This document shows, piece after piece, positions 1-38,465 of a stretch of DNA of 38,465 nt. A program made the position numbers and the translations under genes. Source of the DNA: Bacteroidales bacterium (GTDB lineage Bacteria > Bacteroidota > Bacteroidia > Bacteroidales > UBA932); contig JAFZED010000079.1 of assembly GCA_017560825.1 (NCBI GenBank), positions 1 through 38,465 of the forward strand, in the 5' to 3' direction. The notes under the pieces were generated by a model. That model searched no databases. It was not told the origin of the DNA and saw only the letters and a list, made by a program, of their open reading frames with translations. The number at the start of each line of letters is the position of its first letter. Within the stretch, counting starts at the first letter, position 1.

Positions 1-1434
1 GATACGGCTGTAATGGGAACAAGGTTTTCCTTGATGAGTGATCCCATAGAACTTACTCTTATGTCTGGTGGAACTGTGCTTTTTTATGTGTCTAAGGCCA
101 ATATCGCTAGAGATAGGGTGTTCGTGGATTATAAGAAATATATAGACTTATGTGGAGACATAGATAAAGAGTTAATAAAAGAATATCAAGACAGACTTAA
201 GGAATATACAGGAGCAAGAGATGATCGAAATAAGTTCTTTTATTCAGCTTCTTTAGATTTGTTAAAGAAAGGGATTGTTGTACATCATGGCTCTATGCCA
301 TTGAAGATGCGTTCAATAATTGAGGATTTTATAAATGCTGGTTTATGTAGAATATGTTTTGCTACCAGTACTATTGAGCAAGGGATTAATATGCCTTTCG
401 ATACCGTGTATATTACTAGATTTGAAAAAAGTAAACCTTTGGCTATTAAAAATCTTATAGGAAGAGCTGGACGGTCTACAGCTGCTAAGAAACTTGATGT
501 GGGTAGAGTCATTATTAATAGCAACAATGTTACAGATTTCCGAAAGATTGTTAACGAAGATTATAAGGTGCGTACTACATCATTGATTGAGGAACCTGTT
601 AAAGAATTGGGTTCCGATTTCGATGATTTTAGAGAGTCTATAATTAATGGAACTTTTGTTGAAGAATTTAATATGCCACAGAAGCAAGTTGATATTTTGA
701 GCGCTGAAGAACTACAAGGCAAAATATCAGAAATTCTACCTACGCTTATTAATAATGACAACTCGCTAAATGAGATTTATAAACTTTCAAAAGATAAATC
801 AGATTCTATATATCAATTGCTAATTGATATATATGAAAGGCATCTTAATAGAAATGTTGTAGATGCAGAAAGGGCAATTTTAATACATGCATTGCATATA
901 TTGTTTTATAGAATGTATTATAAAACCTTTAGTGCCATATGCAAAGTGCGTTATAAGAGATTGTGTAATTTCGAACAGATTAAAAAACTTCATTCTCTGG
1001 GTAGAGATTATAGTAGAGTCAAAGTGCAGTATTTACCAGCCTATAGCGATATACCAAATTCAAACTTGCAACGATTCCCTTTAGTTGAACTATCTAGATT
1101 TGCAAAGGATGTCGATTTTGATGTTGTTGTGTATGATACATATGACTATTTGGATAAATTAATAGGTTTTAAATTGTCAGATATTTACTATGCGGCTTTC
1201 AAAGTTAATTATGAAAAGACTGATGATGAGAGAGCTTTAGTATTTGCAAATCTAATTAAATATGGAACATCAGATGAGAAAGAAATTTATATGATTAGGT
1301 ATGGATTGACTCTGGATGATATTAATACTTTGGAGCCATTTATTGATAATATTGATGCTACAGGAATCACTGTTCTTCCGGAATTTTATAATCTCTCTGA
1401 AGATGTCAAAAAGCCTCTTGAGAGATTTGTGTAG
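1..1434 (+). CDS. SF2 DEAD/DEAH-box helicase, C-terminal part (5' end outside window)
   Basis: The reading frame is open to the first base, so the gene begins left of the window; the ATG at 13 is internal. What is visible is the second RecA-like domain and a long helical C-terminus. Helicase motifs are clear: HHGSM near residue 92, a TSTIEQGINMP stretch (motif V type) near 120, and LIGRAGR (motif VI) near 148. This order is that of Ski2/Hel308-like or HamB-like SF2 helicases, which move along nucleic acid using ATP. The Walker motifs must lie upstream. It sits in AT-rich DNA next to a tRNA-derived attachment site and other defence-like genes, so a role as the helicase of an antiviral system (for example Hachiman HamB) is possible but is inference. 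A plausible coding extension in another frame after the stop is treated as a finding. Confidence 0.85.
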   Translation, partial: DTAVMGTRFSLMSDPIELTLMSGGTVLFYVSKANIARDRVFVDYKKYIDLCGDIDKELIKEYQDRLKEYTGARDDRNKFFYSASLDLLKKGIVVHHGSMPLKMRSIIEDFINAGLCRICFATSTIEQGINMPFDTVYITRFEKSKPLAIKNLIGRAGRSTAAKKLDVGRVIINSNNVTDFRKIVNEDYKVRTTSLIEEPVKELGSDFDDFRESIINGTFVEEFNMPQKQVDILSAEELQGKISEILPTLINNDNSLNEIYKLSKDKSDSIYQLLIDIYERHLNRNVVDAERAILIHALHILFYRMYYKTFSAICKVRYKRLCNFEQIKKLHSLGRDYSRVKVQYLPAYSDIPNSNLQRFPLVELSRFAKDVDFDVVVYDTYDYLDKLIGFKLSDIYYAAFKVNYEKTDDERALVFANLIKYGTSDEKEIYMIRYGLTLDDINTLEPFIDNIDATGITVLPEFYNLSEDVKKPLERFV

Positions 1435-1733
1435 AGGTAAGTTTAATAGGTTAGGCAACTGCAATGAAAGATTCTTTGGAATTATCCTCAATATAATTAA
1501 CTCTGTAGACCCAACAGGAATTTACGTTCTTTAAAATAAAAGCTGGTTAGGTTTGATGCTAAAACTGTATTAAACTCTATCAAACTATAACTCAAAGCCG
1601 CTGAAAAACTAACCTTGATAATCGAACTCTAATAGACCCTAAAGGACTATAAAGTGGTAATCAAAAATAACTGTTTGCTAATCTGTTGTTCATTTTTGAG
1701 ACCTTATTTGAGAATCAATGCGTTATAAATCAT

Positions 1734-1761
1734 ACTATGCTCCCTGGGGGAGCACGAAAGG
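1734..1761 (+). repeat. Attachment-site-like copy of the tRNA-Lys 3' end (att A)
   Basis: Bases 1742-1761 are identical over 20 bases to 7772-7791, which cover the T-stem 3' strand, the acceptor 3' strand and the first bases after tRNA-Lys(CTT). The left flank (actat, R, ctccct) instead matches the other copy at 7495-7516. A mixed identity of this sort, tRNA-like core and right side with an element-like left side, is what an attR junction of a tyrosine-recombinase element looks like. No 5' tRNA half is present, so this is not a tRNA gene. Confidence 0.75.
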
Positions 1762-1789
1762 AGTTCAGAAATGAACTCCTTTTTCTTTT
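1757..1789 (+). terminator. Rho-independent terminator after att A
   Basis: An eight-base-pair perfect stem (1759-1766 with 1773-1780) around loop AGAAAT is followed by a run rich in T. It has the same position relative to the tRNA 3' end, and the same type of loop, as the hairpins at 7523-7549 and 7787-7815, though the stem sequence differs. Confidence 0.85.
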
Positions 1790-1844
1790 ATCAGCTCTTA
1801 AGCATCTGCAATGTATAGGGAAGTTTATTAGAATTCACAAAAAT

Positions 1845-1863
1845 GTTGGTAAATCGGTTGGTA
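1845..1863 (+). repeat. Arm-type-like repeat, left copy
   Basis: The 19-base sequence is TTGGTA repeated twice around AAWCGG, preceded by G. It differs at one base from the copy at 7446-7464 in the same orientation. The two copies lie inside the segment bounded by the tRNA-Lys 3' copies, about 90 and 30 bases from the cores. The segment GGTAAAA (1860-1866) is also repeated inverted at 1881-1887. Integrase arm-site function is inferred. Confidence 0.6.
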
Positions 1864-1915
1864 AAATAATTCTAAATTAGTTTTACCAGCATGTCTATTT
1901 AAGACATCCCTTATT

Positions 1916-1998
1916 CTAAGATATAATGTCCATGAAACCTCGATTTTGTGGACATTAATTGTTTATAATGTATGCGTTTTGCGATTTTGTGGACATTA
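1916..1998 (-). repeat. Orphan promoter-like repeat array
   Basis: Two identical 17-base direct repeats lie at 1941-1957 and 1982-1998, 41 bases apart. The nine bases 1923-1931 are the inverted complement of 1949-1957. Read on the minus strand, a TATCTTAG box (1916-1923, one base off TAnnTTTG) follows the repeats. The layout resembles the repeats and -7 box upstream of the DUF4143 ATPase gene at 5098-5183. Here only a three-codon frame (ATG TCT TAA) follows, so no gene is attached. Confidence 0.5.
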
Positions 1999-2221
1999 TA
2001 ACCAGATATGATGAGGGGTAGATTTCTGAGGCAATATTCATATCTGTGGGTAATGCAGCACAAACCACATAGAACGCCATAACCCTAACCTCCTCACCCA
2101 CCTCAAAAGACTCAACCGCACACCCGCAGTGTCACTATTCTGTATGCGATTCTGAAGATTTCTTTCTGGTAGAGGATCATAATATTCCGGAATATGTGAG
2201 TTGACATTATGTTAAATATTC

Positions 2222-2266
2222 TTTTGTTCACTATGAACATTATTCTATATCTTTGTGTTAAAGATA
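2222..2266 (+). promoter_or_regulatory. Promoter of the TIR gene with overlapping inverted repeats
   Basis: TTTTG at 2222-2226 and TATCTTTG at 2248-2255, 21 bases apart, match the Bacteroidota -33/-7 pattern. Between them is an inverted repeat GTTCA-CTA-TGAAC (2227-2239). A perfect 7-5-7 inverted repeat (2248-2266) covers the -7 box and the likely start of transcription. Both are possible operator sites; no regulator gene is adjacent. Confidence 0.6.
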
Positions 2267-2312
2267 TAATGTGACATTATAAGTTTACATTAAGTAGATA
2301 GAGATATTAAGC

Positions 2313-3734
2313 ATGACAGAAATTAAAATCACCCAATCAGAGATTGCTAGAATCAAAGATTTAAGATCTAATTATGATGCTTTGATTGCAGAGCCCAATA
2401 GCTATTCGGCTATTGAAGCGTATCACTTATGGTATGATGAATCAAGCGTTGTATTTAGTCGTTACTTCGATGATGGCAATAAGGAATACAGCAGCTTTAC
2501 TAATGTAGATAATAATGGTAACGGGTATGTGTTGAGGGGAAATTATCAAAAGATTCGCAAGGATTTCTGTGTGTTGGTAGATAAATTAGAGCGAGGCGCT
2601 TTCGGTGTTGATAAGCCTACTATAGTTGAATGTGCACCAAACATAATGGTATCTTCTAAGAAAAGAATTTTTATTAGTCATGCGTCAAAAGACAAAGAGT
2701 TGATTGGCAAATTTGTGGATTCAATTTTTCTGTTGGGAATGGGGGTTGACTCTGAAATTATTGCATATACCTCTCGTGAAGATACTGGTGTTCCACCAGG
2801 TGAAAGCATCCCTGAATTTATTCAAAGTAATATTGCGTGTGCTGATATTGTCTTATTAATGATTTCTGACAACTATAAAGATAGTGAAGTATGCCTAAAT
2901 GAAATGGGGGCAGCTTGGGCATTGAATAAATATATTATCCAAATCCTACTACCTAATACGTCATTTGACAAATTGGGTTGGTTGTGTTCATTGGATAAGG
3001 CTATCAAAATAATTAATCCAGAATCTATTGATATACTATGTGAGGTGATTACTGACAGATTAGACATCGGTATCAAGCCAACTGTATGGAACAGGAATAA
3101 AAACGCATTTACATCGTACTGTGCAACATTAATATCTGCAATTTTGCCAGCAATTATAGAACCAGAGGTTGTTGATGCTGAGGAAACTGATGAAGACGAG
3201 TTTGGATTTATGGATTATAAGGAACAGCTTGAATCAGAAGTAGAAAAAACTAATAAGGTATGTTTAATTATTACAGAGGCGCAACAAGAATGTACCTTAG
3301 GGATAGAAGCTAACGCCGCTAAATTAAATGGCCTTAATCCTCAATGCCCCAATATTGCACAGGTGAAGGGTGTTATGGTGGCAACTGCTAAAGTAATGGA
3401 TAAATTATCTGATGTTCAAGAAAACAATACCGATTTGTTAAAGCAACATTTCTTCCGTATGGTTGATATTGCCCTTAAAATGAGGTCTGTTTCAACTCCT
3501 AATACGGAGGAAGAGGTGATAACAGAGTTTGATTCTGTGCGACAATTACTTACGGCAATTCATGGGGCCAAGTTGGGGCTTGGTTCATTTAAAGCCGCTG
3601 TGGATGAGTTGCCTAAGGCTGAGAGTACAATTATTAAGGCTCGCAAACGATTGTCAAGCAGCCTCAATGATTTGTTGATTGTGTTAGATGAGTGTTTGGC
3701 AAAAGGTCAAGAACTTATCCATGTTGTATTGTAA
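2313..3734 (+). CDS. TIR-domain protein, probable defence NADase
   Basis: This 473-residue protein has a TIR domain at about residues 117-245. It opens with RIFISHASKDKEL, has the PPGESIPEFIQSNI helix, and ends its core with SDNYKDSEVCLNEMGAAW. Glu187 in that last motif occupies the place of the catalytic Glu of NAD-cleaving bacterial TIR domains. The first 110 residues form an unrecognised domain. After an acidic linker (about 288-300) comes a helical C-terminal region of about 170 residues. There is no signal peptide or membrane segment. Family knowledge says such TIR proteins degrade NAD or make nucleotide signals when phage is sensed; here that is inference. The gene has its own promoter and stands alone, convergent with the ATPase gene 57 bases away. 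No adjacent ThsA-like gene is seen. Confidence 0.85.
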   Translation: MTEIKITQSEIARIKDLRSNYDALIAEPNSYSAIEAYHLWYDESSVVFSRYFDDGNKEYSSFTNVDNNGNGYVLRGNYQKIRKDFCVLVDKLERGAFGVDKPTIVECAPNIMVSSKKRIFISHASKDKELIGKFVDSIFLLGMGVDSEIIAYTSREDTGVPPGESIPEFIQSNIACADIVLLMISDNYKDSEVCLNEMGAAWALNKYIIQILLPNTSFDKLGWLCSLDKAIKIINPESIDILCEVITDRLDIGIKPTVWNRNKNAFTSYCATLISAILPAIIEPEVVDAEETDEDEFGFMDYKEQLESEVEKTNKVCLIITEAQQECTLGIEANAAKLNGLNPQCPNIAQVKGVMVATAKVMDKLSDVQENNTDLLKQHFFRMVDIALKMRSVSTPNTEEEVITEFDSVRQLLTAIHGAKLGLGSFKAAVDELPKAESTIIKARKRLSSSLNDLLIVLDECLAKGQELIHVVL

Positions 3735-3791
3735 TTAATGACGCTTAATTATAGAGTCCCTATCAATATGTAGCTGTAATTATAAGAACTT

Positions 3792-5084
3792 TTACTGCTT
3801 CAAACATCCGATAGGAACCACATAAATTCCGTCCTCAGTACGTCTATATGCATACTCTCCAGTTGCAGTCAAAATCATCTTGAATGCTGGACTTTTCATT
3901 CGAGTTGTGTCAATCTGCTCTTCCAATGCGTTGAGGGTTGTTGCCCCGTCCTTAATCAATGAGTCGCCGCCTAACTTGATTTCAATCAGACCATATTGAC
4001 CATTTCGAAGATGTACTACAGCATCGCACTCTAAGCCGCTCTTATCACGATAGTGATATACTTTTCCATTAAGAGCTTCTGCGAAGACGCGTAAGTCTCT
4101 TACGCACATTGCTTCAAAGAAGAATCCCATTGAATTAAGATCATTCATCAAATCAGTCGGGCCCAAACCTAGTGCAGCGGTTGCAATCGAAGGATCAACG
4201 AAGTAGCGTGTATCAGTAGTGCGTATAGCAGTCTTTGAACGAAGATTAGGGTTCCAAGCAGGCATATCCTCAACGACAAAGATCTTCCTCAACGCGTCAA
4301 GGTATGAACTTATTGTGTCTTCGTCCAATGTCGTAGTGTCGTTATTTTTAAGATCTTCCTTTAGCGTGGCAATAGATGCTTGTGTGCCTTGATGGCGGGC
4401 ATATGCTCGCATAAGACGTTGAACCCTTTCTGAAGCTCTCTTGACTCCATCCACGTTGGTGACGTCTTCCTTTGTAACGGCGTCGTAATAGTCAAATGCC
4501 TGTTCCAATGCAGCTTCTTCTGGCAAACCAACAGCAATTGGCCAACCTCCACGGCATATTAGGAATGCTATATCAGAAAGTTTGAGGTCATTCTTTTGTA
4601 GAATTTTGTCTGGAGCCAGGAATAGTTCACCAAGGCTTACCGTTCCGTTTGACTCTCCTGATTCAAACAATGTCATAGGGCGCATGGTAAGCCAAGCGAA
4701 GCGACCTGTGCCAGAGTGTTCTCTTTCTTTTTCTGCATCTTTATCAGGTACTGCTGAACCTGTGAGGATGAATTGTCCCATAGCATGACGATGGTCAACA
4801 GTATATCGTACTGCATCCCATAACTTAGGAACAGTTTGCCACTCGTCGATGAGCATAGGTGTTTCTCCGGCAAGTGCAGCATCGGAATCTATTTCCAAAA
4901 GACTCTTAAAATGATCCTTGATATCTGGTTTAGCTAACATTATCTTGCTAGCTGCTATTTCTTCCGCAGTAGTAGTCTTTCCACACCACTTTGGACCTTC
5001 AATAAGGACGGCTCCTTTGGCCTGGAGTTTTTTCTCCAACAAGCTGTCCAGAATTCTGCGTTTGTAATTCTTCATTTCTCTCAT
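3792..5084 (-). CDS. AAA ATPase with DUF4143 nuclease-like C-terminus
   Basis: This 430-residue protein begins with an AAA_14-type ATPase domain: Walker A GPKWCGKTT at about residues 30-38, Walker B PMLIDEWQ at about 76-83, and a sensor-like FILTGSA near 105. The C-terminal half is DUF4143, with CDAVVHLRNGQYGLIEIKLG near 360, a D...ExK arrangement as in PD-(D/E)XK nuclease folds. This is a very common Bacteroidota family, often highly duplicated, whose biological role is not settled. The ATG at 5084 is used; a second ATG three codons later is possible. The gene runs opposite to both flanking genes. Its upstream region contains three 23-base-period repeats that overlap the expected -33 position, so expression is likely controlled at those sites. 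Confidence 0.88.
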   Translation of the reverse strand: MREMKNYKRRILDSLLEKKLQAKGAVLIEGPKWCGKTTTAEEIAASKIMLAKPDIKDHFKSLLEIDSDAALAGETPMLIDEWQTVPKLWDAVRYTVDHRHAMGQFILTGSAVPDKDAEKEREHSGTGRFAWLTMRPMTLFESGESNGTVSLGELFLAPDKILQKNDLKLSDIAFLICRGGWPIAVGLPEEAALEQAFDYYDAVTKEDVTNVDGVKRASERVQRLMRAYARHQGTQASIATLKEDLKNNDTTTLDEDTISSYLDALRKIFVVEDMPAWNPNLRSKTAIRTTDTRYFVDPSIATAALGLGPTDLMNDLNSMGFFFEAMCVRDLRVFAEALNGKVYHYRDKSGLECDAVVHLRNGQYGLIEIKLGGDSLIKDGATTLNALEEQIDTTRMKSPAFKMILTATGEYAYRRTEDGIYVVPIGCLKQ

Positions 5085-5097
5085 ATCTTAATGAGCA

Positions 5098-5105
5098 CAA
5101 AATTA
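5098..5105 (-). promoter_or_regulatory. -7 box of the DUF4143 ATPase gene
   Basis: On the minus strand this reads TAATTTTG, a TAnnTTTG box, 13 bases before the ATG. The -33 element would fall at about 5124-5127, inside the first repeat of the array at 5121-5183, where no TTG is present. The promoter may therefore need an activator, or be blocked by a protein bound to the repeats. Confidence 0.45.
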
Positions 5106-5120
5106 ATTAATTATTTCAAT

Positions 5121-5183
5121 TTTCGGTAATTCGGCATTAAATTTTTCGGTAATTTGGCATCTGTTTGTTCGGTGTTTTGTCTT
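5121..5183 (-). repeat. Three iteron-like repeats, 23-base period
   Basis: Copy 1 (5121-5137) and copy 2 (5144-5160) share 16 of 17 bases (TTTCGGTAATTYGGCAT on the plus strand). A third, degenerate copy at 5167-5183 shares 12 of 17 with copy 2, exactly one period further on. Twenty-three bases is close to two helical turns, so the copies would face the same side of DNA. They lie in the divergent promoter region between the ATPase and PIN genes. Confidence 0.7.
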
Positions 5184-5237
5184 TGTCTTATGTGCTTAAG
5201 TATAGACATCGAGATATACTTTATTGAATAAAATAAC

Positions 5238-5245
5238 TATCTTTG
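5238..5245 (+). promoter_or_regulatory. -7 box of the PIN-domain gene
   Basis: TATCTTTG matches TAnnTTTG and lies 21 bases before the ATG at 5267. No good TTG occurs at the normal -33 distance, so this is a partial match. Confidence 0.45.
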
Positions 5246-5266
5246 ATGAGCATAGAACATTAAGGT

Positions 5267-7381
5267 ATGAATAAATGTAACTTTACGCTCATTACTGCTA
5301 TTTATGATCAGCAGACGGCAAACTTATATAGTGAAATATATTTCCCTATTATCTCTTATGAGATATCGAGATTGTTCCATGAGTCATCGTCTTGTCAAAA
5401 GTACTACGATATAACAGCCTTGAAAGATTCTATTCAGGATAGTTTCGGTGTGTCGATTCCCCTAATCGTGTTGAAAAGAGCTGTAAAGACATTATCGGAA
5501 AATAGAAAGACTGGGCTGAAGATTTCATTATATGAAACAGGTGAGAAATTTTTAATTGAACAACCGTGGGATGAGTCAATAGGGGTTTCTATAGATCAAA
5601 AATTTGAAGAATTGAACCTTAAGTTGGGTAAACTTGAGGAAAAGTTCTGTGCATATTTAGAAGAAAACGGTATCCCATCTCAATTGTCTTTTGCTCAATT
5701 CTTCGAGGATCATAAAGAGGATATAATAGCATTGTTGAATGCGAATGATACAAGTACGAAGATTGACGGTGAATATGTACATTATGTAACATTCCTTCAA
5801 GATATAAGGAAAAGTGATCCTAAGTTATATGCAACTGCAAATGAGGTGTTTTGGGGAACTGTCATATCAGGTTTTCTGCAAAGAGAAAAAGTGGAGTTTG
5901 ATGTAAAGGTGAGTGAGTCGGTAAGGTATTATTTGGATACTTCCCTAGTGATGTCTCTTTTAGACCTGGATACCACTGAGAATCATCAATATGCGGTTGA
6001 ACTTTGTGAAATAATTAATAAGTCTGGATGTCAAGCATGGGTTCATCCTATAACGATAAAAGAGATTGATGGAATTTTACAAAAGGTTGAACAATATGGC
6101 CCAGCAAGTGCGATGCATATTAGTGCAGCGGTTGAAAGGCGTGATCTTACTCCATCAAAAATTACAAATATTCGAGCTTCTCTAGAGGGGTTAATAAAAA
6201 AGGCGGGAATAAATGTTCTTAATTTATCTCCGAACAAGGTCCGTGAAATAATATCAGACTATAAAGACAAAGGTTCTGTCAAAGCTCTAGGAGAAGCTAG
6301 GCGCGGGCATAATAAAGAATCTATTGCTGATATTCATGATGTGTTTATGTATGACTATATTTCTAACAATAGAAGGTATACTAGTACATTTATGGAGAAA
6401 AATGATCTATATTTTGTGACTCTTAATAAAGATCTGATCAGATATTTCAGGGAGCAACAGGCTCAAGGTACTTCTCCTATAATGTTGCATCCATCAAGAG
6501 TGATTGTGGATTTGTGGATGCATAATGCTGAAGGCCTATCTGTTAAAGGAGATGGTTTAAGTGAAGTGATGTCAAGATGTATAGCTCTTAATAAGACAGA
6601 TGCGAGGAAACGTATAACAGATTTTGTGAAAAAATTTAATGATTCTGAGCAGGCTTTTACTGAGGAGGTTGTGCAAAAGGTATATTCTGCTTTAGTAAAT
6701 AGGTCTTCTGCTGTGGTTAATTCTATCGATGATCTTATGGAGTCTGAAACGGAGTCGAAGGATGAATTAAGACTTAAAATAGCTACTGTTGTGGATCACG
6801 CCGTTAAATGGGAAGAAAGTAGACGGCAAATGATTCAAGACTCTAAAGATAATTATGAAAGACAGACATTAGAGCAACAAGAGACAATTGCTCAGCGTGA
6901 TGAGAGGATTAAAATACTAGAAGAAAGTATTAAGATAAAGAATGAAATAGAGGACTTAGATGAACAAATAATTGATAAAACTAATGAATTGGAAGAACTG
7001 GAAAGAAATAGGGATTCATCTATTTCGATGTTCCGACCTTATTCCTTCTTTATAGTTGGATGTATTGCTGCTCTTGCTACTTTGGCAATAATAATTCATT
7101 TGGCTTTTGAACTTAAAACAATAGGAGGCTTTGGACCTTTAATCAAGGAACAGAGGTTGGAAATAATTATTATGCTTGTGACGCTTCTGCCACATTTAAC
7201 AGCTTTGGGAAGTCGGAACTCGTATATTCTTAATATTTGCAAAATGAGACAGGAGCATTTAGCAAATAGTAGAAAAGAATGGGAAAAGCAGCATCCTAGA
7301 TATGATGAAGTTAGTAGACAATTAACAGAGTTGAAGAAATCTAGGATTGAACTCAAGGCTAAAAGGAAGAATTTATTATAA
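5267..7381 (+). CDS. Membrane-anchored PIN-domain protein with coiled coils
   Basis: The product has 704 residues. Residues 1-160 are a helical N-terminal region that may include a winged-helix-like fold. A PIN-type nuclease domain spans about 218-415, with the acidic residues expected of the family: Asp224 in YYLDTS, Glu266 in ITIKEID, Asp355 and Asp358 in ADIHD, and Asp389 in FVTLNKD. A coiled coil (about 515-583) leads to two hydrophobic helices (about 592-614 and 631-649), then a second charged helix to the end. PIN domains are metal-dependent RNases. The hairpin of two membrane helices would hold the nuclease at the inner membrane. I know of no named family with this full architecture. 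It lies just inside the right attachment-like site and is a candidate defence effector by context. Confidence 0.75.
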   Translation: MNKCNFTLITAIYDQQTANLYSEIYFPIISYEISRLFHESSSCQKYYDITALKDSIQDSFGVSIPLIVLKRAVKTLSENRKTGLKISLYETGEKFLIEQPWDESIGVSIDQKFEELNLKLGKLEEKFCAYLEENGIPSQLSFAQFFEDHKEDIIALLNANDTSTKIDGEYVHYVTFLQDIRKSDPKLYATANEVFWGTVISGFLQREKVEFDVKVSESVRYYLDTSLVMSLLDLDTTENHQYAVELCEIINKSGCQAWVHPITIKEIDGILQKVEQYGPASAMHISAAVERRDLTPSKITNIRASLEGLIKKAGINVLNLSPNKVREIISDYKDKGSVKALGEARRGHNKESIADIHDVFMYDYISNNRRYTSTFMEKNDLYFVTLNKDLIRYFREQQAQGTSPIMLHPSRVIVDLWMHNAEGLSVKGDGLSEVMSRCIALNKTDARKRITDFVKKFNDSEQAFTEEVVQKVYSALVNRSSAVVNSIDDLMESETESKDELRLKIATVVDHAVKWEESRRQMIQDSKDNYERQTLEQQETIAQRDERIKILEESIKIKNEIEDLDEQIIDKTNELEELERNRDSSISMFRPYSFFIVGCIAALATLAIIIHLAFELKTIGGFGPLIKEQRLEIIIMLVTLLPHLTALGSRNSYILNICKMRQEHLANSRKEWEKQHPRYDEVSRQLTELKKSRIELKAKRKNLL

Positions 7382-7445
7382 AATACAACCTGATACTACA
7401 CTACAATAAAGAAAATTTAACTTTTTTACACTTTTTTGAATTTAA

Positions 7446-7464
7446 GTTGGTAAAACGGTTGGTA
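7446..7464 (+). repeat. Arm-type-like repeat, right copy
   Basis: GTTGGTAAAACGGTTGGTA has one base difference from 1845-1863 and the same orientation. It lies 31 bases before the right attachment-like core. The pair marks the two ends of the 5.8 kb segment. Confidence 0.6.
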
Positions 7465-7494
7465 GTCTTTATAACTCATTGATACTCAACCTTT

Positions 7495-7520
7495 ACTATA
7501 CTCCCTAGGGGAGCACAAAA
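7495..7520 (+). repeat. Attachment-site-like copy of the tRNA-Lys 3' end (att B)
   Basis: Bases 7495-7516 match 1734-1755 at 20 of 22 positions, including the ACTAT flank. They contain the tRNA acceptor 3' strand GGGGAGCAC, with CCCTA in place of the T-stem CCCTG. No tRNA 5' part precedes it. It is read as the right junction of the TIR/ATPase/PIN element. Confidence 0.72.
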
Positions 7521-7522
7521 AG

Positions 7523-7549
7523 GCAGCTCAGAAATGAGCTGCTTTTTTT
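7523..7549 (+). terminator. Rho-independent terminator after att B
   Basis: The perfect stem GCAGCTC/GAGCTGC with loop AGAAAT is followed by seven T. It would end transcription coming from the PIN gene, or from a tRNA reconstituted at this site. Confidence 0.88.
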
Positions 7550-7630
7550 GTTGTATTTGATTCTGTACACAGTGCCGCCTCAGCATGTTGTGATTTTTTT
7601 GATAAAATTAGGATTATCCTAAAGAAAAAG

Positions 7631-7661
7631 TTGCATCTCTCACCGACATTGTCTATATTTG
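7631..7661 (+). promoter_or_regulatory. Promoter of tRNA-Lys
   Basis: TTG at 7631-7633 and TATATTTG at 7654-7661, 20 bases apart, match the Bacteroidota consensus. The start of transcription would lie about 45 bases before the mature tRNA. Confidence 0.75.
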
Positions 7662-7711
7662 CAGCCCCAAACGAAAAAAGGGGTTTGTAAGAAGTTCTTT
7701 TTTCAAATATT

Positions 7712-7784
7712 GCTTCCCTAGCTCAGTTGGTAGAGCACGACACTCTTAATGTTGGGGTCCAGGGTTCGAGCCCCTGGGGGAGCA
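7712..7784 (+). tRNA. tRNA-Lys (anticodon CTT)
   Basis: All four stems can be drawn. The acceptor pairs GCTTCCC (7712-7718) with GGGGAGC (7777-7783). The D stem is GCTC/GAGC. The anticodon stem is CGACA/TGTTG with loop CTCTTAA, giving anticodon CTT at 7745-7747. The T stem is CAGGG/CCCTG with loop TTCGAGC. A is the discriminator base and CCA is not encoded. The 3' end of this sequence is repeated at the two attachment-like sites to the left. Confidence 0.96.
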
Positions 7785-7786
7785 CG

Positions 7787-7815
7787 AAAGGTCAGCAGAA
7801 ACGCTGACCTTTTTT
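7787..7815 (+). terminator. Terminator of tRNA-Lys
   Basis: An eight-base stem (7789-7796 with 7803-7810) with loop AGAAAC is followed by six T. Its tail runs directly into the -33 element of the next gene's promoter. Confidence 0.9.
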
Positions 7816-10387: not shown

Positions 10388-13300
10388 TTGTTGAAAAATT
10401 CTAAGGTTATAGAAATAATGTTGTCAATGCTTTTCTTCTCTTTCAGGGTCTCGATAGGGAAGCCCAGACACACAGTCTTGTAGCCTGTTCCTTCGAAGCA
10501 TATTCCTGCTGAAAGTCTGGTGTCCTTATAGTACAGGAAGGTACTTCCTTTCCTTGATGCCGGGGCAATCGCGTCAGGCGCCTCCACGCTGTAGCATACG
10601 GAATTGATGGTGTTATGGAAACTGCCGGCCTCTTCCTCCGCGGTTCCGGCACGCGAGCTTTCTTCAAACATCAACTCGCCTGTCCTTGATCCATAGTTCC
10701 TTGTCCACTTGTAGCCGAGTACCTCACGAGCGAATTTCTTGCTTGAGTCACGGAATGCCTTTTCAAATGTGACAGGATAGACCTCGTCCCAGATGTCTGT
10801 GGCAATGTGTGCGCCGCTCACGAGGATGTTTCCTCCGGCCTGTGCAAAAGAAGTCAATGCCTGCTGCATATCTTCTGTAAATACGGTAAATCTCTGCACC
10901 TCTCCAGCCTGATTTACGGTAGTTACCTGCTTGCCGCAGATGATATCGGCACTCCAGGCTGCCTGCCTGAAGGTCGAGTCTGCCGCGAAGGCTTCATTGC
11001 TGCAAGAGTAGAAGGCGTATCCGGCCTTGAGTATCGATTTTCCGTGTACATATGGATAGTCAAAGGTGTTTCCCGCCACGACCTTTCCTGCATAGTCTGA
11101 GTACGACGCGCCGAACCCCGGATTGTCATTTGTGATGAACTCGAACGAGCGTCTGTTCTGGTACATCTCTCCTATATAGGTAATGTCGTATATATGCGGA
11201 ACTCCGCTGTCAAGCGAATTGTCGAATCCGGCATATTCCGGAGTGTCGAAGAACGCCGGTGCGCTGATTCTGTCGAAGTTGTTGACTATGAGTACCTTCT
11301 GCTCGGTGCTGCCTTTCTTTGGCATACCTATGCTGACCGTCTCTGACGGGAAACTGCGGCCTCCGTCGTTATATGCCTCGATCCTGAAGCTGTAGATATG
11401 TCCGGGTTCGATGCCGACTCTGAATGAGAGTGTTCCGTCCTCGGCGGCGGTAGGTATGACGGTGGCGCCGCAATCGAATGCTCCCTCATCCTTTCGGGTA
11501 TATAATATATATCCCTCCGCTGACGCTGTCGGTTCAAGTGGGTCCTCGACCGCCTTCCAGCTTATCACCGCCTCCCGGTCGGACGCGAAGGCAACTCCCA
11601 TATTGTCGACGGGCAGCGGCTGTACCTCGTAAGGCACGCCGTACCTGTTTGAAAGGTATTTGAGCATACCTTTATATATGGCCCTGCTGACTGTAAAGCG
11701 GAAGCCCGGATCAAGACCGTACTTCATATCCGCGAAATTCTGGTGCGACAGAAGTTCGAGGAGCATAGACGGTGATGACGGTGTGCGGGATTCGCGATAG
11801 CCTCTGTCCCAGACACATCTGCGGCTCCACTGAGGGTCGAATGTGCTGCATATGTCGTGTACTATCTGGCTTTGAACCAGGTCAGCATACTCACGGCTGG
11901 TCATACGGTTTTCATTGTTGGGGAGCTTCTCCCTGTTCTCTGATTTGAGGGTGTAGATGGCGAGCGTGCCGACAATGGAGTCGTTCGGAGTCACCCCGGC
12001 ATCAGAATGGAAGCCTAAAGTAAGGTCGACAGGGATTCCTTTACCTCCTGTCTTGCCTGGATTCATATCCGAACCACGGCTGATCCACTCCACCCAGTCT
12101 CCGCGTGACATATAGTCGTCTGCGTAGTCATCCTTGGATTCATTCGGTGTGAATATGTCTTCTGCTGCGCCGGCCCACTGCAGCCAGTATCTTGCTCCTT
12201 CGGCCGATCTTGGCATTCCAGACACAACAGGCTCGTCCTTGGATCCTCTCTTCGCTCTTGCTATATTTCCCATTCCACCTCCGAAGCGTACGGCGTCAGC
12301 TGTTATGACGCTGCCCTTTTCGTGGAAATAGCCCTGAGGTGTGCTGTTGTCCAATGTCACATATCCTTCCTGACCTTCAGCGAACTCGAAAGTTCCGAGG
12401 TAGATCCAAGTGCCTCCACCGATGCTCTGGTTCACGATGAACTCGCTTTCGCCTCCGAGGTGATGGACTGTGTAATGAGCGGCTTTTGTGCTTTCAGGCA
12501 GGGATTTGTAGGAGATGTGGACTGCGTATCTTCCTCTTTCCGGGATAGACGGCCTCCACTCGACAGAAGCGGTTGATCTGGAGTCCTTTGCACAGTCTGC
12601 CTTGCGTGCGGTTCCGGTGATAAAAGGATTCTCCAGCCCTGTGTATATTTCCTTCTTGGCAGCGAAACCTGTTCCTGCATCTGTCCATCTGCCTTTTTCA
12701 TAGTACTCCGCCACTCCGTATCTGCGGTGTGAGGCGTCCTGGTCTGCAATGACTTCGTTTGTCTGTATGTCCCTTTCTCGAGGCATCAGTACATAGGCGC
12801 CGGCATTTTCAAGCATAGGCACGAGGTAGGGGAGAACGTAGCCCTGGGTGTACATATCCTCGACGGTCTGAAACAGGCACGGCCTCTGCCATTCCCACTC
12901 GCCGTTGTTCTGGTTGAAGTACCTTCCGTGGCTTTGCCATACTGCTATATTGCGTCCTGTGAGGCCCTTGGTGTAATTGTCTTCTGAAAGCCTTGTCACC
13001 AGCGGGTGGGGTCTGGAAGGAATCCCTATCCTTCCTTTTGTCTGGTCTGGGGTTCCGTCAAAACCGAGTTCGGGTGTGGTAAGGCGTTCAATTGCGACCT
13101 TGTTGCTGTAGATCACGCCGATTCCGTAATTCTTGTATTTTTCAGGGAATCTCTTCTTCAGTTCTTTTCTGAACCATTCCGGCTCACCTTCCCTCCAGGG
13201 ATAGTCTCCGAGAGAGTTTGTGAAATAAAAGTCCAGATTCTCTTTTCTCTTCATCACGTTCTTGAGCTGAAGGCTTCCCTTTACGTCGCGGTTTCTCTTG

Positions 13301-38407: not shown

Positions 38408-38465
38408 GGTGCCATAGCTCAGTTGGTAGAGCAAAGGACTGAAAATCCTTGTGTCCCTGGTTCGA
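38408..38465 (+). tRNA. tRNA-Phe (anticodon GAA), cut by the right edge
   Basis: Visible parts are the acceptor 5' strand GGTGCCA (38408-38414), D stem GCTC/GAGC, anticodon stem AAGGA/TCCTT with loop CTGAAAA (anticodon GAA at 38441-38443), and the T-stem start with GGTTCGA. The T-stem 3' strand and acceptor 3' strand lie beyond the window. Confidence 0.93.

Follow-up and report, generated by a model that had tools for sequence, protein, structure and literature searches.

A probable integrase-less element of the cis-mobilizable type behind an integrase-bearing element at tRNA-Lys in a Bacteroidales genome

How can a segment of DNA that is bounded by copies of a tRNA 3′ end be explained when it holds no recombinase gene? 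We investigated this question in contig JAFZED010000079.1 (C3) of a Bacteroidales bacterium (assembly GCA_017560825.1), a draft genome of 82 contigs that is 77% complete. The complete contig of 38,465 bases is called the window here, and the segment at positions 1742-7516 is called unit 2. Our analysis of its anatomy and relatives makes it quite probable that unit 2 is an integrase-less element of the cis-mobilizable element (CIME) type with probable defence cargo, located behind an integrase-bearing element that we call unit 1. CIMEs, as PMC5704250 describes them, have lost integration and transfer genes, keep both attachment (att) sites, attL and attR, and lie in tandem with an integrating element. 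The chances that unit 2 is still mobile are about even.

Arrangement of the locus

An initial annotation of the window had proposed two elements stacked behind a tRNA-Lys to the left of the window, with one integrase in the outer element, and had predicted that a gene for a tyrosine integrase would lie there next to an intact tRNA-Lys with the same 3′ end. We found both on another contig, C25, whose minus-strand reading ends in an exact 141-base overlap with window 1-141. An exact overlap of this kind is a typical product of a de Bruijn assembler at a branch. One open frame, checked from the coordinates, runs from C25 1017 to window 1434 across the overlap; because the overlap sits within an open frame, the tRNA repeats do not account for it. 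C25 contributes a tRNA-Lys(TTT), a tRNA-Lys(CTT) with the same 3′ end as the tRNA-Lys(CTT) of the window, a tyrosine integrase, open reading frames (ORFs) of 173 and 233 amino acids (aa), and the N-terminal part of a HamB-type helicase.

The order of the locus is thus tRNA-Lys, unit 1 (integrase, HamB), the att copy at 1742, unit 2, the att copy at 7501, and a further tRNA-Lys(CTT) at 7712-7785. It has four att cores: in the tRNA-Lys(CTT) of C25, at 1742, at 7501, and in the tRNA-Lys(CTT) at 7712-7785. The left edge of the window (1-1741) is the last part of unit 1, which holds an integrase, and unit 2 holds none, as had been proposed. The GC content is 35-37% in units 1 and 2 and 49-51% in the chromosomal flanks. 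This arrangement of two stacked units is very likely; the tandem of unit 2 with an integrase-bearing element at the same site depends on the 141-base contig overlap.

The features of the window are as follows; genomes used for comparison carry our handles (G039 and so on).

1..1434, plus strand: C-terminal part of the HamB-type helicase of unit 1 (PADLOC HamB; frame continues into C25)
1524..1755, plus strand: non-coding right-end module of unit 1, att core included (91% identity over 233 bases to G039; from 1498, 85% over 258 bases to G187)
1742..1755, plus strand: att core copy where units 1 and 2 meet (same bases as the 3′ end of tRNA-Lys)
1742..2011, plus strand: left-end module of unit 2 with core, terminator hairpin and tandem arm-like motif (88% over 283 bases to G288)
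1845..1863, plus strand: arm-like tandem motif, left copy (motif scan of the window)
2060..2169, plus strand: remnant of an IS1-type transposase gene (72% over 124 bases to the IS1-fragment stretch of the G187 unit, the Pfam IS1 match belonging to the G187 copy)
2313..3734, plus strand: TIR-domain protein, 473 aa, SpbK-like in the TIR region (Pfam TIR_2, PADLOC spbK, PDB SpbK chain)
3792..5084, minus strand: AAA_14-DUF4143 ATPase, 430 aa, PADLOC candidate PDC-S01 (Pfam, PADLOC)
5267..7381, plus strand: membrane protein of 704 aa, PIN-like as read by eye (hydrophobic stretches near residues 590-650)
7406..7516, plus strand: right-end module of unit 2, att core included (81-82% over 100-111 bases to right ends in G257, G374 and G210)
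7446..7464, plus strand: arm-like tandem motif, right copy (motif scan of the window)
7501..7516, plus strand: att core copy at the right end of unit 2, with one mismatch to the tRNA in a 13-base block
7517..7549, plus strand: terminator-like hairpin 3′ of the att core (from the sequence)
7712..7785, plus strand: intact tRNA-Lys(CTT), the second CTT copy of the locus (ARAGORN)

The copies of the tRNA-Lys 3′ end were correctly noticed at the outset. The 20 bases at 1742-1761 are identical to 7772-7791 at the 3′ end of the tRNA-Lys(CTT), and a near copy lies at 7501-7516. The flank ACTAT-R-CTCCCT, also reported earlier, precedes both copies, at 1734 and at 7495; it is common to them over about 12 bases only, and farther out the two belong to different kinds of end module. 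The tRNA-Lys(CTT) is the only tRNA that ARAGORN reports for the window. The two copies are therefore not whole genes, which agrees with the earlier reading that both are without a tRNA 5′ half. We searched 400 genomes of the genus for the pattern ACTATNNYYCCTNGGGGAGCAC and found 10 occurrences in 8 of them, the own genome included, against none for the backward pattern used as a control. The pattern therefore occurs beyond chance.

A hairpin followed by a T-rich stretch lies directly 3′ of the core in all 17 sites examined, while the same call was obtained at 11 of 300 random positions of the window; at a broken core in G374, no hairpin was seen by eye. A terminator hairpin is expected beside a tRNA, and the same type was found both beside a plain tRNA-Lys (G059) and at unit junctions.

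Cargo and ends of unit 2

The cargo of unit 2 consists of three genes, all with open frames. They had been read as a TIR protein, a DUF4143 ATPase and a PIN membrane protein, and this reading holds: Pfam gives TIR_2 for the first and AAA_14 with DUF4143 for the second, and the third has hydrophobic stretches, but its PIN-like character is a pattern of acidic residues judged by eye. The 704-aa protein had no family match above cut-off in searches that included Pfam, PADLOC and PHROGs, and no PDB match; its relatives occur in 3 other genomes of the 400, at 25-30% identity. The TIR protein matches Pfam TIR_2 (4e-11), PADLOC spbK (6.9e-33, 112 bits, residues 89-268) and the PDB SpbK chain 9phb_G (8.9e-21). 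It does not have the full-length architecture of SpbK, as its 473 aa compare with a 290-residue PDB chain and about 200 residues lie beyond the matched part. The three genes are probable defence cargo.

The absence of a recombinase between the copies, claimed in the initial annotation, was confirmed with 67 integrase queries, none of which gave a tblastn match at E 0.01 in window 1-7800. Furthermore, none of the three cargo ORFs matched a conjugation, mobilization or integrase family.

The ATPase is 95.5% identical in amino acids to a gene of G026. Its gene and upstream region (window 3792-5158) show 86% DNA identity over 1,367 bases to the G026 copy, which has another context. The DUF4143 gene apparently moves on its own, as a single gene.

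The two ends of unit 2 have an arm-like motif in common. It consists of 19 bases with two repeats spaced by 12 bases and is placed just inside both ends; with up to 4 mismatches allowed, the window has it at 1845 and 7446 and at no other position. When the two end stretches are compared, their best-matching 19-mers agree at 18 of 19 bases, compared with 12-15 in 60 shuffles. At up to 1 mismatch, the motif gave 7 matches in 6 of the 400 genomes (own genome included) and none in the control.

In G288, the motif is found about 100 bases past the 3′ end of an intact tRNA-Lys, inside the 283-base alignment to window 1742-2011; an Abi_2 gene follows this left end, and there is no integrase as far as the contig end 3.2 kb on. 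In G257 and G374 it lies in the right ends that resemble that of unit 2, and in G257 a DUF3408 gene lies on the element's side of that right end. A separate search added G210, which shares this right end and has a one-base gap within the motif. The occurrence in G315 is inside an ORF and is probably due to chance. A more distant left end is present in G287 (70% over about 110 bases). Searched as DNA, the left end of unit 2 gave matches in 9 of 330 genomes; besides the own genome, only G288 matches along its length, and six genomes match the terminator part alone (35-45 bases).

We also looked for the motif near integrases. At up to 3 mismatches it is absent from 30 integrase loci of G257, G374, G210, G288 and G287, with one weak site at 4 mismatches; the scan also took in 76 integrase loci from named genomes. 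On a possible origin by deletion from a conjugative or mobilizable integrative element, we observed the right end common with the DUF3408-bearing G257 locus and the IS1 remnant near the left end, and no integrase-bearing parent of unit 2 was found in these loci.

Two further observations concern the ends. Window 1910-2011 is AT-rich with repeated inverted motifs and is conserved at the left end of the G288 unit; it is perhaps a site for a regulator or a directionality factor. In G056 (L070, about 4508-4545), three tandem 12-base repeats lie past a tRNA-Lys array in a layout similar to that of the unit 2 arms.

Unit 1 and related units in other genomes

Unit 1 is a 6.2-kb element in tRNA-Lys(CTT). 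Its tyrosine integrase (447 aa, C25 2992-4335, minus strand) has relatives among named genomes in Bacteroidales and other Bacteroidota at no more than 42% identity (76 loci). Its operon of two genes with overlapping frames ends in the HamB-type helicase, both pieces of which are matched by PADLOC HamB models (1.1e-19 and 3.7e-32). As for a HamA partner, the 233-aa protein beside HamB matches no PADLOC, Pfam or PHROGs model.

We applied the half-site matrix of unit 2 to the 311 bases between the tRNA and the integrase gene of unit 1 and found two or three similar motifs. Their layout is like that of the unit 2 end repeats, and their count is above shuffles at the highest of three thresholds only. 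At the right end of unit 1, no half-site motif was found at the two higher thresholds. A 150-base stretch of unit 1 is 81% identical to a part of an element in G026, about 0.4-0.5 kb from the right end of that element, which suggests that unit 1 may derive from an element of the G026 type.

Relatives had been proposed for comparison, and they do show different cargo behind the same kinds of end. The G039 and G187 units, whose right ends resemble that of unit 1, both begin at tRNA-Lys(CTT). The former carries a helix-turn-helix (HTH) protein, HipA (HipBA) and a superfamily 1 helicase with DUF2726, and the latter an IS1 fragment, an AAA_14 ATPase with a DUF4143 match just below cut-off, and an nSTAND NTPase. 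Neither has an integrase by Pfam on its ORFs or by an integrase hidden Markov model (HMM). Of the four units with both ends known (units 1 and 2 and those of G039 and G187), three are without integrase. PADLOC on the cargo of other units gave MkoA/MkoC (G039 helicase), PDC-S60 (G187 NTPase), and PD-T4-5 and AbiD (G288 Abi_2 protein), where several of the matches cover merely one domain, such as the helicase core.

The G026 element carries a Toprim gene and ends in ACTAT at the same core. One of its genes has 73% DNA identity over 1,335 bases to a G393 stretch that holds a Pfam-confirmed TraG gene, so the element is of the conjugative type. Behind it follow a left end 93% identical to that of unit 1 over 104 bases, 175 bases with 84% identity to a portion of the unit 1 integrase gene, which is not open there, and further on a gene with a metallo-beta-lactamase-fold match and the DUF4143 gene like that of unit 2. 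In G393, the right end of the G026 element recurs identically over 125 bases, immediately followed by DNA 87.5% identical over 1,696 bases to the HTH-HipA stretch of G039. G039 (L073, about 5470-5705) and G026 (L095, about 11116-11353) also have a 238-base stretch in common at 93% identity; judged by its coordinates, it includes the 3′ end of the helicase gene in G039, and G026 may therefore hold a remnant of this gene.

The chromosome to the left of the tRNA, alignable over 2.0-3.3 kb, is 78% identical to our own in G039, 72% in G187, and 69-70% in G288, G024, G026 and G056. Comparison with the end modules covered G039 (91 vs 78%), G187 (85 vs 72%) and G288 (88 vs 69%). Because the ends are more alike than the chromosome and units 1 and 2 are low in GC, we infer that the end modules have moved between species.

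Of the comparisons proposed earlier, the one for an empty site found none, and because the genes to the right of the tRNA-Lys array differ among the genomes examined, such a site is not definable. For the units of G288 and G026, the right end was not found, as cores at up to 3 mismatches gave unlikely sites only.

The integrase HMM, which was built from 67 integrases including that of unit 1 and partly from the 76 named-genome loci, gave a match in 2 of 35 tRNA-Lys loci, our own and that of G041. These loci were chosen for downstream room and partly for element ends and are no random sample; two overlap in one genome, tRNA positions are available for 34, and 33 have at least 3 kb downstream of the CTT gene.

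Competing explanations and known systems

If unit 2 moves, a tyrosine integrase supplied by a neighbour would recombine the tRNA-derived cores, and unit 2 would be excised either by itself or together with unit 1 as a composite. It would travel when a conjugative element is present at the same tRNA. Through the terminator hairpin beyond each core, transcription of the tRNA would still be terminated no matter which unit adjoins it. That the unit 1 integrase is the working helper, a specific form of this explanation, is a tentative proposal that we place slightly below an even chance. It is consistent with the adjacency of this integrase, the same tRNA core and the half-site-like motifs before its gene, but the threshold dependence of these motifs, their absence at the right end of unit 1 at the two higher thresholds and the lack of the arm motif in the integrase loci of the five genomes argue against it.

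Several observations weigh against the CIME reading. The copy at 7501-7516 is one base off the tRNA, within the 13-base CCTGGGGGAGCAC block, and the core in G374 is without its 3′ half. Both unit 2-type ends were seen together in the own genome only, and no such end was seen beside an integrase. The gene set of unit 2 was not recovered elsewhere, where the 400 genomes were searched with the PIN-like protein alone and not genus-wide with TIR and DUF4143. The two ends of unit 1 have no common 14-mer in direct orientation at up to 2 mismatches, with one weak inverted match, so unit 1 may be a chimera. The fraction of shuffles that reach the half-site count beside the integrase varies from 0.026 to 0.508 with the threshold. 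Since the hairpin of the unit 2 left end follows tRNA-Lys in G059 without a visible element end, the hairpin alone is no mark of an element. A decayed, immobile island would look much alike.

Such a dead remnant would be a fixed tandem of decayed elements with non-recombining cores that is kept for its genes. It narrows the CIME reading and is compatible with it, and it is a serious possibility somewhat short of even. The mismatch in the right core, the IS1 remnant, the unmatched ends of unit 1 and the closed integrase stretch of G026 could be caused by decay. However, unit 2 has near-identical arm-like motifs at its two ends and three cargo genes with open frames, and for the three genomes compared, identity between species is higher in the end modules than in the alignable chromosome. 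An explanation without any integration would take the 3′ copies as relics of decayed tandem tRNA-Lys genes. Two-CTT tRNA-Lys arrays do exist in relatives (e.g., G187, G032, G056 and G288), but the copies have no 5′ half, the element ends that precede them recur in other species without a tRNA there, and the integrase was found at the predicted place; we regard it as extremely improbable. The initial annotation had called the segment satellite-like, a term that implies a phage helper. A phage satellite or tycheposon-like island would also be small and tRNA-borne, with probable defence cargo and without its own transfer genes. Nevertheless, PHROGs gave integrase, helicase and unknown-function families only for seven proteins of units 1 and 2. 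With no structural or packaging family among them, a CIME fits better than a satellite. In addition, IMG/VR had no exact match for the arm motif or for the unit 1-type end pattern, which is narrower than the pattern of the genus scan and does not cover the right end of unit 2, and Toprim or DUF3408 genes are present in the elements that carry related ends. The satellite label was thus not upheld, and this explanation is very unlikely. As for what had been named as evidence against the stacked elements, the upstream tRNA-Lys and integrase are present and relatives carry different cargo behind the same kinds of end. The CIME reading remains our preferred one.

CIMEs accreted with integrative and conjugative elements (ICEs) or integrative and mobilizable elements are known from Streptococcus thermophilus, and PMC5704250 describes a tRNA-Lys tandem in S. 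agalactiae. Unit 2 is like CIMEs in that it has both att sites, has no integrase or transfer genes, and lies in tandem behind an integrase-bearing element at a tRNA 3′ end. It differs in its Bacteroidota host, in cargo that is solely probable defence, and in ends that are common across species with different cargo. In Dehalococcoides, PMC3146451 reports 15 ssrA islands without integration module that were proposed to be cis-mobilizable. As described there, multiple islands lie in tandem between copies of an RNA gene 3′ end, as at our locus, whereas they involve a serine recombinase, a tmRNA target and dehalogenase genes instead of a tyrosine integrase, tRNA-Lys and defence cargo. Clusters of attC sites lacking integron-integrases (CALINs), on the account of PMC11389934, likewise hold cargo between recombination sites and depend on the recombinase of another element; here the units are of 5-6 kb with two asymmetric tRNA-type ends.

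According to PMC8880864, ICEBs1 carries SpbK, which works through abortive infection. The TIR protein of unit 2 is likewise borne by an integrative element and is homologous across the TIR region, but it is longer than the SpbK chain, and its carrier has no transfer genes. Unit 1 resembles Hachiman (HamAB) in its HamB-type helicase and its two-gene operon with overlapping frames, and differs in the partner protein that matches no model. ICEberg 3.0, as presented in PMC10767825, contains 275 CIMEs and 754 ICEs with defence genes, and restriction systems are noted on Bacteroides ICEs. Among the matches listed in our literature search, none concerned defence-bearing CIMEs in Bacteroidales, which is no proof of absence. 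Integrase-less hitch-hiking islands are thus already known as a kind, and what makes this locus interesting is its setting and the fact that ends are reused while the cargo changes.

If mobile, such units would explain the spread of defence genes without a visible mobility gene among uncultured Bacteroidota, and they would need about 100-300 bases per end and the integrase of a neighbour. Island finders that require an integrase would overlook them, while the att copies supply exact boundaries for locating further units. Common ends with different cargo make the choice of helper and the exchange of cargo testable across strains. The integrase-less state may even be a stable lifestyle, in which several types of end module form a cassette system at tRNA-Lys(CTT) in this genus: the short left and right modules, with a tRNA terminator behind every core, would persist, the defence cargo between them would be exchanged, and integrases from any conjugative or integrase-bearing element docking at this tRNA would move the units. 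We consider this rather unlikely.

Some minor observations concern the rest of the locus. Window 7517-7711, upstream of the second tRNA-Lys(CTT), holds the terminator-like hairpin and a stretch that looks promoter-like by eye. The CTT pairs in G187 and G288 are closely spaced, unlike that of the window, whose second tRNA-Lys(CTT) may represent either a tRNA-carrying unit bounded by att sites or a separate locus of older date. Contigs C3 and C25 both break at tRNA genes, C3 ending in a truncated tRNA match (window 38408-38465) and the far end of C25 in another (60247-60307).

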